Below, one piece after another: positions 37 through 14,800 of a DNA stretch of 26,135 nucleotides. Both the position numbers and the translations under genes were made by a program. The notes below the pieces were generated by a model. That model made no database searches and was not told the origin of the DNA. It saw nothing but the letters and a program-made list of their open reading frames with translations. Numbering within the stretch: position 1 is the first letter of the stretch; each line of letters opens with the position of its first letter. This stretch comes from a virus: the IMG/VR virus record IMGVR_UViG_3300028194_000428, positions 1-26,135 of that record, one strand, 5' to 3'.

Positions 37-393
37 TTATATTCTCTTGCCGATAACTGCACCGAGCGCAGCACCTACAAGACGTGAGGTTAATAAATCG
101 TAAAGAGCACCCTTTGTAACTCCTAGTACTTTAGCTACTGCTTTACCTATTGTCTTTCCTAATGCAAAACCAGTAAGACCACCAAATATACTTCCTAAAA
201 CACCTTCATTAATAATCTCCTCAACACAATCTTCTAAATTCTTTCCATTTTTTTGAGCTTCGATTATTCTATCTACTGTAGAATCTATTGCATCTTCTTG
301 TTCTTTTGATAAATCATGTGATTCATTCAATAGGTTTTGAACATCCACACTCTGATTATGAGATTCTTGTAAATAGTCTTTAAAGGTTTTCAT
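37..393 (-). CDS. Putative internal head pro-protein with glycine-zipper C-terminus
   Basis: This 118-aa protein starts MKTFKDYLQES, close to the ten-residue capsid-targeting leader of T4 internal proteins (MKTYQEFIAE, from memory). Residues 1-63 are acidic, about 16 D/E against 6 K/R. They contain two full matches to the T4 prohead protease gp21 consensus (I/L)-x-E|(A/G): IIE|A at 43-46 and INE|G at 61-64. Two near matches end in Ser, at E10 and E24. Residues 64-118 are cationic, about +6, and carry two glycine zippers: G67, G71, G75, G79 and G83, then G107, G111 and G115. I infer packaging into the prohead and cleavage that frees a membrane-active or membrane-spanning peptide of about 55 residues. 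It could instead be a small scaffold component like T4 gp67 or gp68. No signal peptide is seen. The gene follows the tail-tube-fold gene after 25 nt. Confidence 0.6.
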   Translation of the reverse strand: MKTFKDYLQESHNQSVDVQNLLNESHDLSKEQEDAIDSTVDRIIEAQKNGKNLEDCVEEIINEGVLGSIFGGLTGFALGKTIGKAVAKVLGVTKGALYDLLTSRLVGAALGAVIGKRI

Positions 394-418
394 TTGTATA
401 CTTTATTTGTTTTATATA

Positions 419-973
419 TTAGACCACATTAACAACAACATCTAAGATGTTATAGCCAAAAGTAATATCAAAAGTTTGAAATTCAATAGTATTACTTGAA
501 AAATTTAAATCCAAGGCACCTACTTCAGAAATAAACATATCTTTTAATTGAACAGTTACAAATACAGTTCCATCAGCATCAAGCATTTGTACACCAACAC
601 CTTCAGGTAAATAAGGATGCTTACCGCTTAATTTATAATAAAAGTCAAACATTTCTACGGCCATCCAGTAATTCACATAACCGTCAAATGCTTGCATAGT
701 AACAGTCATAGTCTTATCAAATAATTGTTGCTTTGGTAAGCTAGCTCTAAACGCTCTTTGATTACCTGGATAGTCTACTTGAGTTACAGCATCAAATGAA
801 GGTCCTGGTAAATTTAAAGATTGTATTCCATAATTCCAATAATCAATAGGTTCTTTAATTAACCCACCAGGAATTCTAGTAAGAAAAGGTTTATACTTTT
901 TAGCAATTGGCTCAGGTATAAAGTTTCTTGGAAAATCAAATTTAAATTGATTATTTCTTGCGCTTAATATCAT
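419..973 (-). CDS. Tail tube-fold protein (gp19/gp48/gp54-like)
   Basis: A 184-aa protein with the layout of T4-type tail tube proteins. A strand pair around IQSLNLPGPSF (50-60) is followed by FDKTMTVTMQAF (85-96), a central helix (98-115), and a final beta pair. In that pair VQLKDMFISEVGALDL (141-156) and NTIEFQTFDITFGY (161-174) parallel the end of gp19, where an IEIKG strand leads through VGEL and SNNEIQTFEVTL. T4 gp19 is 163 aa, so the size fits. In T4 the tube protein gp19 and the tube initiators gp48 and gp54 share this fold. The gene lies among baseplate and appendage genes rather than beside a sheath gene, which favours a tube initiator or minor tube protein, but the main tube protein cannot be excluded. 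Its start overlaps the stop of the 296-aa gene by four bases (ATGA), so the two are probably translationally coupled. Confidence 0.65.
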   Translation of the reverse strand: MILSARNNQFKFDFPRNFIPEPIAKKYKPFLTRIPGGLIKEPIDYWNYGIQSLNLPGPSFDAVTQVDYPGNQRAFRASLPKQQLFDKTMTVTMQAFDGYVNYWMAVEMFDFYYKLSGKHPYLPEGVGVQMLDADGTVFVTVQLKDMFISEVGALDLNFSSNTIEFQTFDITFGYNILDVVVNVV

Positions 974-11874: not shown

Positions 11875-14800
11875 TTACTGACCTAAGGGTCCTATACCAC
11901 CATCAACATTCTGAAGATCAGACGCTGCAATAAAAGTTTGATTTAATGAAGGCCTTAATGAAGATACAACTTTTTCTAAATCATTTAGACTTTTTGTTAC
12001 TGTAGCTTTAGGGAAATTGTCAATACTTAATCTATCAGATCTATACTTAGCAGAAATCTCAATATCAAATTGTACAACATCTGAATTATTAGGATATAAA
12101 TCAAAACCTATCCTTTTAGCATACGTTAAGTTTACTGTTGAGCCTGAGGTATCACCTCCGACATTTCCTAAACCACTACCTGTGGTTACACCAAAGTAAT
12201 CAGTCATTCTATATTGAAATACTAAAGGAATATTTACAGAATTTTGTTGGCCAAAGTTTATAAGTTCTCTAGACTGTGAAGCATCACCGTCTACTTGAAT
12301 ATTTTCATGATTATCAGAAGATATAAATAAGTAGGATCCACATGATTGCTGGCCTAGTGTAAATTGATCAAAACCATCAAATGAAGTTTTTGCATTTCTG
12401 GAATAACCTCCAGGTAATGCTAATAAACTAGGTATTGAAGTTATTGACGGACTAGCTTGAAATGGTTGAGTTGTATCAAAATTAATAAGAACACCCGTCG
12501 GAGTAGCTGCAAATGCAGATAAATCCGTAGCATTTTCATTTAGATAAATGCCTTGCTGTTTTCCAAAAGAATTTGTAGATTTAAGAGGTGAAAATTTAGA
12601 TGATCTAAACATTACTCTACTTGTACCATTACCTGCACTAGTGCAATCAACACCACCAGCAGCCGTAGCAGGTAATGTTGTAATATCACCAGTTAAAGAT
12701 TCATATGCCGCTTTATATGCATCATAATTAATTAAATTTGGGTGAGATATTGAAACAGATAATACATCATCAGTACCACCAGCAAAATTTGTTCTAGTTG
12801 TTGGTTGTCCTGTATTATCAAAACCACCACCCCATATAAATTCTGTTACGGGTGTAGCTATACCAGAGTCAGTTGATGCATTATAAAAATTCTCAGCAGT
12901 ATCTAAATTAATAGTAAAATTACCATCGGGATTTATATAACTATAAAAATCACCATCATTTGAAACATCGCTAAATCTACTATAAATAAATTGATTTCTA
13001 TTTTGTGAAGACTGAAACGGTGGTAATGAAACAGTTTGTCCATACTTTGTTGTAGCTGTAACATCTGGGTTAGTTAATAATATAGGTGTAAGATCATATT
13101 TTCTAACTGTATCATAATCAACATCGTCTGCTCTGTATGTAGCCCTACCGTTAGATTGATTTATAGCACTGTTATCTAACCATGAATACGTTGCTGGTAA
13201 AATAGTAGTACCATTATTAATGCTTCCAGTATTTGTACTACTGTATGAACCAGGATTTTCAGATTGTCTAACCATTCTTGATCTATTTCCAGAAATCCTA
13301 GCTACTAATTGTAAAGTGGTTTGAGATTTATTACCAATTTGAATAAAATATGTTTTTGATACTATTGCTCCTCTAGGATCATCTAAACCTTTAACTTCTT
13401 GTCCATAAAATCCAGCAAATATTTTAGTTACTGCATTCTGTCTTAATGGATAAGTATTACCAGTATCATCTACCAGTGTTGTTTGCATTTCACCTTGTGC
13501 ATTATTTAATATTTCTGCAAATAGATCTAATTGATTTTGCATTTCATTTAATTTAGTAAACAAATCAATCGGTGTTTGGTTTTCTGATAAAAAACCAGAT
13601 GCAATAACTGGTGTGGAGTGAGCATAGTATGTTTCATTTGCAGTAAAAGAACTACTTAAATGAGTAGGTAATGCAATTGATTCTAAATTTTCATTTAATG
13701 CAACTTGTGCTAAGTCTTCTTGGTTTTGTGCAAGTATAGATTCTATAGCACTATCAGAACTTAAGTCGGCTGGAAATTCAACTCTAATGGCAGTACTATA
13801 TTCACTCTCTAATGGATTAGCTGGCCACCCTGCTTCTGAAATAGATTTTACTTGTATTTCTACCTGTTCCCCTTTTCTAATTGGAATATCTAGTTGATTA
13901 ATATTTACCGAATCTGCATTATCATCATCAATAGGAGTCCATTCATATAAACCTGTTATTGTATTTCTTATTCTAGGTCTTACAACACTATCTACAATTA
14001 TATAGTTAGAAAACGCCCCTTGGCTAGTTCCACTACCGTCAGTAAATGTAAATTGATCAACCGGGTTAGCTGCACCATCAGCAGATAAGTATCTATATCT
14101 ATACTTAAATTTTATTATATCTTGTAAGCCAGTATCTGGAGCCGATTTTTCTTTTGGCATTGACCAAAATCCTCTTACTCTATACTTAGGTGTTATGCTG
14201 CTTACTGAATTATCAGAGGCAAATGAATCTATTTCTGTTACAACTGAAGAATATAATTTAGCTTGTGATGCTCTCTCTGTGATAAGACCCTGTAAAGCAT
14301 TCTTATCAGCATCTCTTGCTACTTCAGTTTTATAATTTGTTGTCTGTATTTTAGTTCTGCTTTGGGCAATAGCAACATCCAATTCGGATAATGTTGATTG
14401 AATAGTGTTCTTTTGATTATTTAAATCTTTTAGTTGTACTATTGCATCCGAATTACTAACTTGGCCATTTATTAAAGCAACAGTAAAATCATCGGAATTT
14501 AACAATGGTGAATTAGGTATTAATCCTTCTCTACTTGTAGGAATCTTATCCTGTGCAAATGATAAAAGATATCTACCAAAGTCTACTGCATTCTGTTGAT
14601 AATAATCAGCTAATGATTGTTCATTACCAGCAGCATTAATAGTTGTTAAGTCATTAGTATAAAAACCACTACCGGGTGACCAATTAACAGCAGGCATTTT
14701 TGACGCTGGATCAATTGGTTTAATAAATGTAACACATCTTTCGTTAAATCCAACAGTAACATCTACTTCAACATTATTATTTAATGAAGATCCTATTTTT

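Follow-up and report, generated by a model that had tools for sequence, protein, structure and literature searches.

The DNA analysed here, called the window in what follows, is a stretch of 26,135 nucleotides of viral origin (IMG/VR record IMGVR_UViG_3300028194_000428, positions 1 to 26,135). On its minus strand, an open reading frame (ORF; called by a simple longest-ORF rule) at positions 37-393 encodes a protein of 118 amino acids that opens with MKTFKDYLQ-E10, a leader of the type found on the internal proteins of phage T4, and carries several putative prohead-protease sites (Table 1; an arrow, as in E63↓G64, marks a putative cut). The ORF is the last of a run of tail genes coding for a tail-tube-like protein, a gp6-like baseplate wedge protein (phrog_219, E 1e-25) and a gp25-like wedge protein. 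The 118-amino-acid protein gave nothing above cut-off against Pfam and no credible match in a profile search of the PDB, and the PHROGs families that it matched, only weakly, are of unknown function. A scan of genome contigs for homologues found none and therefore provides no link to a prophage or a host. A search of viral contigs, by contrast, returned 80 loci with 44 distinct sequences, every one of 118 amino acids.

Table 1. Coordinates of the gene for the putative internal head protein, its parts and its surroundings in the window.
Feature	Position	Strand	Basis
ORF, 118 amino acids, precursor of putative internal head protein	37..393	-	Translation of window; 80 homologous loci
Leader MKTFKDYLQE, residues 1-10, T4 capsid-targeting-sequence type, putative cut after E10	364..393	-	Residues 1-4, 6-8 and 10 invariant (44 sequences)
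E24 codon, second conserved putative cleavage site LLNE↓S	322..324	-	Invariant in 31 aligned members
E45 codon, putative site in window sequence, unconserved as site	259..261	-	Residue 46 E/D in 18/44
E63 codon, principal putative cleavage site INE↓G	205..207	-	Invariant in 31 diverse members
Predicted mature piece (residues 64-118) with glycine-zipper helix, LLTSRL segment and another helix of GxxxGxxxG type	40..204	-	Most conserved family part
AATATATAA, putative late-promoter element upstream of gene	412..420	-	Enrichment before ORF starts in 181-kb relative
Upstream neighbour, tail-tube-like protein, end of tail gene cluster	419..973	-	phrog_45 tail tube, E 4.9e-8

The initial annotation had singled out this ORF, its protein and its sites, and all of them are real. 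Four matches to [ILVMF]xE[AGSN], at E10, E24, E45 and E63, are present against 0.85 in residue shuffles (P = 0.006), and the resulting density of 33.9 sites per 1000 amino acids compares with 0-7.1 in the window's 15 other ORFs. Because the leader was among the seeds of the first homologue search, the search was repeated with residues 64-118 alone and with a profile seeded in the C-terminal half; all homologues parsed from these searches carried MKTF.D[YF][LI].E (one locus, L159, was not parsed). F4, Y7, L8 and E10 are invariant in the 44 sequences and correspond to the positions that mutagenesis of the T4 internal protein IPIII found important for targeting (4 and 7) and for processing (8 and 10); according to T4 reviews, ten IPIII residues suffice for packaging (PMC9026906). 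The proposed alignment with a T4 leader holds in residue type at these four positions. The initial annotation had quoted the leader of IPII/IPIII, but, among the T4 ipI-ipIII leaders as read from AF158101, that of IPI (MKTFKEF...ITE↓A) is the closer one over residues 1-7.

The individual sites fared differently. E63↓G64, proposed as a full match, is the strongest: it is invariant in 44/44 sequences, E63 is likewise invariant over 31 diverse members, where residue 64 is G and only once S, and a site before residue 64 is retained in homologues 29-51% identical, Lak megaphages included. E24↓S25, initially regarded as a near match, is in fact a conserved site, with E in 44/44 and S in 43/44 sequences, and E24 persists in all 31 aligned family members, among them the Lak type with LFE↓G. 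At E10 the glutamate is invariant, whereas the following residue, given as S11 in the initial annotation, may be N, S, A or E. The second proposed full match, E45↓A46, is kept in only 26 of the 44 sequences (position 46 is E in 17 and D in one) and was rejected as a conserved site. Residues 11-20 are free to vary, while the flanking leader and E10, E24 and E63 are conserved. In the full-length AlphaFold model (predicted local distance difference test, pLDDT, 61), E10, E24 and E63 lie at or in inter-helix linkers, E63 in the coil between predicted helices, whereas E45 sits within a predicted helix spanning residues 30-48. The 63 residues up to the principal site, the putative propeptide, have a net charge of about -10 to -15.

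Queries of the Lak type and a phage collection added distant members from LR756500 (462 kilobases, kb), 15 Lak records and the IMG/VR contigs L181-L187; the protein is common to marine and gut (Prevotella) phages. The leader and final site are MKTFLELINE and TNE↓G in L184, VKSFKEYLQE and TNE↓G in L185, and KSFKEFIQE and IEE↓S in L187, and the Lak homologues have LFE↓G followed by VDE↓G. In a tblastn search of the phage collection at E values up to 1, only LR756500 and Lak phages were recovered and no T4-like phage, and a mature domain homologous to those of T4 IPI, IPII or IPIII, which would have indicated descent, was not found there. The distant homologue in L185 had no match among cultured phages.

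A gp21-type protease, which the initial annotation expected in a phage with such sites, is present in relatives of the window. A 181-kb contig holding a copy 81% identical to the window protein encodes an S77 protease (PF03420, E 6e-16; phrog_207, 2e-40) that shares 32% identity with T4 gp21 across 113 amino acids and keeps the GEL-HP and SSR motifs. It stands between a portal-like ORF and a gp23-type capsid protein (PF07068, E 8e-31), that is, in the T4 order. S77 proteases also occur in LR756500 and two Lak genomes, hence in all three large-genome relatives tested, and in Lak-C1 the gene of the 118-amino-acid family and the protease gene share a strand, the former about 4.4 kb upstream of the latter. 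The window's own record gave no match to S77, a result that is uninformative for a 26-kb fragment of tail genes. As separate observations, the S77 protease at L085:18182-19903 bears a long C-terminal extension of coiled-coil-like repeats (YSEYLGENLDK type), possibly a fused scaffold, and the gp23-type capsid protein at L086:11-1939 has a putative propeptide of only 9 residues (MYANQLINE↓A), compared with 65 in T4.

The predicted mature piece, residues 64-118, aligns across 31 diverse members with at most a one-residue insertion and ragged C-termini. An AlphaFold model of this piece (pLDDT 73) contains helices at 65-90, 96-101 and 104-117. The first carries G67, G71, G75, G79 and G83 at i+4 spacing, a GxxxG run of five (P 0.008 by shuffling), together with the lysines K80, K84 and K88, and the second GxxxGxxxG helix has G107, G111 and G115. 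Both helices show repeats of the glycine-zipper kind, but the Pfam Gly-zipper models remained below cut-off on the 118-amino-acid protein. The charge of the piece is about +6 in the marine group. At the level of sequence, the mature domain is unlike any T4 internal protein and belongs to no annotated family.

Leaders of this kind on other proteins, which the initial annotation had proposed to look for, are abundant in the relatives. On the 181-kb contig, MKNFNEFVNE↓A, MKHVKLFEQWL and MAKLKTYSEFLNE↓G are examples of the leaders that begin many ORFs. With a motif derived from T4 mutagenesis ([FYLIV]xx[FYW][LIVM]xE within residues 1-18), the enrichment is modest in this contig (8/201 ORFs, 2.1 expected, P 0.001) and strong in LR756500 (31/614, 5.2 expected, P 8e-15; mostly of MKYI type); the first 125 kb of T4 contain 3/175, with 1.6 expected. 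Apart from a leucine-rich-repeat (LRR) group and a few weak links, the bodies of these tagged proteins mostly have no relation to one another, and the recognized tagged cargo of LR756500 includes LRR proteins, a polynucleotide kinase (PNK) 3'-phosphatase and a DUF2201 metallopeptidase/VWA protein. The 181-kb contig and LR756500 share a conserved tagged protein of 423 amino acids (E 3e-78), in which the leader position is kept too. In another family, the leader would appear to be an exchangeable module, as suggested by one member whose conserved body bears MKYVKPLNE↓A instead of MKNFNEFINE↓A. Putative cleavage sites are also frequent further along these proteins: in a set of 18, hand-picked by their first 45 residues and excluding the 118-amino-acid protein, there are 8.9 motifs per 1000 amino acids beyond residue 45 versus 3.7 in other proteins (39 sites, shuffled expectation 17.5; permutation over proteins, P 0.009). 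Three head-cluster proteins have 16.4 per 1000, and a check with the same motif gave 37 per 1000 for T4 gp67 and gp22.

Several further observations concern these leaders. In LR756500.1 (L252-L277), more than 20 ORFs share a near-identical leader of the MKYI(K/L/Q)xYxxF(L/I)xE type, for the most part on bodies that differ from one another, LRR proteins and the PNK 3'-phosphatase among them (for example at 13446, 180972, 198758, 313909, 315677, 317088 and 455031). On the 181-kb contig (L085-L093), the gene clusters at 72.9-78, 92-97, 120-121 and 172-178 kb have MKxIKxFxxFxNE-type leaders, are rich in IxE sites followed by A, G or S and mostly lack Pfam matches. In Lak-C1 (L279-L298), several different proteins open with MNKxIKxL(L/I/M)E(S/N)LFDD and others with MxKKALYExIM (for example at 1557, 2690, 34333, 142601, 151442 and 367677), possibly the Lak version of the tag; the Lak motif was defined after looking, and its P value is no clean test. 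Finally, a small protein encoded at L005:13565-13783 and by homologues of G011 172004 combines a conserved NYxxFV(S/N/T)EE leader with a basic C-terminus in 34 distinct homologues, and is a candidate for another packaged protein.

The sequence AATATATAA occurs in 30 copies in the 180 kb examined of the 181-kb relative, and 20 ORFs have a copy no more than 45 nucleotides upstream of their start, against 0.65 expected. Its TATATAA core precedes the portal gene, the protease gene, several tagged genes (including one for a tagged core protein) and the gene of the 118-amino-acid protein; those homologues of this gene that were displayed have kept the element as well. It is probably a late promoter of this phage group. 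In the window and genome-wide in G011, it is found 20-40 nucleotides upstream of late structural genes.

None of the refuting conditions of the initial annotation that could be addressed by computation came true. We infer that the product of the gene at 37-393 is probably a precursor that matures into an internal head protein; its acidic propeptide would target it to the prohead and be cleaved off there, freeing a glycine-zipper piece that may be membrane-active on ejection. The leader MKTFKDYLxE would bind the scaffold core of the assembling prohead, like the capsid targeting sequence of T4 IPIII, and the phage's gp21-type S77 protease would then cut at E63↓G64, as well as at E10 and E24, and so remove the propeptide. 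For these two steps the argument comes from sequence, conservation and co-occurrence of the protease. By analogy with T4, the freed 55-residue helical piece, mostly basic, may then remain in the head with the DNA. The most tentative step is the last, in which the piece would be ejected at infection and, most likely as an oligomer in the inner membrane, aid the passage of DNA and protein cargo; alternatively, it could have a DNA-packing role within the head.

Several observations weigh against this interpretation. In marine phages the gene adjoins tail genes and lies outside the head cluster, and the window contig is devoid of head genes, the protease being seen in relatives only. The Lak homologue has a shorter and different leader and a mature piece with a charge of only about +1. 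The helix at 64-90 is moderately hydrophobic (mean Kyte-Doolittle value 1.2-1.7 for the best 19 residues, across the family), and membrane insertion is uncertain for this reason. The confidence of both structure models is modest, and fold searches with the mature domain gave no significant match (best E 2.9 in the PDB and 2.3 in BFVD).

We favour a membrane-active ejected piece, and its main rival, rather unlikely in our judgement, is a core or DNA-condensing peptide of the prohead, comparable with T4 gp67 or the internal peptides of T4; it would be needed in the head but neither ejected nor membrane-active. The combination of an acidic propeptide with a basic mature piece, the high site density shared with T4 gp67 and gp22 and the position of the Lak gene in the head cluster would all suit such a peptide, but the glycine-zipper spacing and the LLTS(R/K)L segment, which is almost invariant, point to a specific assembly of helices, and the Lak mature pieces are hardly basic. 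The initial annotation had offered a packaged effector or a new core protein. The mature part, found in marine and gut phages alike, is better conserved than the rest of the protein, which makes a core or ejection function likelier than one as a fast-evolving anti-defence factor or host-specific inhibitor. We therefore think it quite unlikely that the mature piece is a packaged effector for anti-defence or host takeover, injected like T4 IPI* to block a host enzyme or disturb the membrane, even though the leader type is shared with T4 IPI, a proven injected inhibitor (PMC9026906), a single cut would free the C-terminal piece and the tagged proteins of LR756500 include enzyme-like cargo such as the PNK 3'-phosphatase. 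T4 internal proteins are by contrast described as poorly conserved, possibly driven by an arms race (PMC9026906). Since the gene comes immediately after tail genes in marine phages, the protein could also be a tail-associated membrane protein (an ejection, pilot or tail-tube factor) expressed together with those genes. Its leader and glutamate sites would then be structural and uncleaved; E63, for instance, could cap the helix starting at 64. This is very doubtful, as the leader type recurs on many unrelated proteins and was swapped on one body, and the tail proteins of the window have a low site density. Chance resemblance in an AT-rich, Glu-rich genome, where loose site motifs are present in about 8% of 25-residue windows, can practically be set aside in view of the invariance over 44 sequences and in homologues 29-51% identical, and of the genome-wide enrichment of leaders.

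The T4 capsid targeting sequence is known from a handful of proteins and has been used for loading foreign proteins into heads. The same kind of tag on many proteins of huge phages suggests a large hidden protein cargo per virion. It is possible, and we put this forward tentatively, that in Lak, LR756500 and marine huge phages a modular, exchangeable N-terminal tag is a capsid-import code of general use, carried by dozens of unrelated proteins (LRR proteins, a polynucleotide 3'-phosphatase and a putative metallopeptidase among them), so that the virion delivers a large preformed proteome, of which the 118-amino-acid protein would be a lineage-wide core member forming a membrane passage. We found no account of a tagged repertoire in huge phages in the literature on tags, proteases or huge phages, which was covered in part. 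If such a code exists, the injected cargo of uncultured huge phages could be read directly from sequence, and tagged proteins of unknown function would gain a place and time of action. The 118-amino-acid family would then mark the tagged system and be a candidate DNA-entry component for uncultured phages.

Among known systems, the ejection proteins of podophages (T7 gp14-16, P22 gp7/16/20) are comparable in proposed function only, as internal proteins forming a membrane passage; no sequence homology was found, and hits to 'internal virion proteins' in the structure searches fell short of significance. The prohead core proteins gp67 and gp22 of T4, which are degraded to internal peptides, share dense protease sites, a small precursor and the expected timing in head assembly. 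No homology to them was found, however, and the protein described here has one long conserved C-terminal piece without an internal site. The internal proteins of T4 resemble it in their MKTF(K)(D/E)(Y/F)-type leader, whose residues agree in type at the four positions tested, in a glutamate-directed cut followed by a small residue, and in a small size with a basic mature part. They differ in that no similarity to their mature parts was found, in their propeptides of 10-19 residues, compared with 63 residues and several sites here, and in the variability of their mature parts, which contrasts with the strongly conserved glycine-zipper helices of the present family. The head and ejection proteins of the giant phages PhiKZ and SPN3US are unrelated and are cut by a protease of AxE↓ specificity, unlike the S77-type, T4-like system considered here, but they too have propeptides with several redundant cuts made by a prohead protease (PMC10052503, PMC9026906). 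In phiKZ, redundant sites within propeptides secure their removal (PMC9026906), and in SPN3US long propeptides are taken off by several cuts (PMC10052503).
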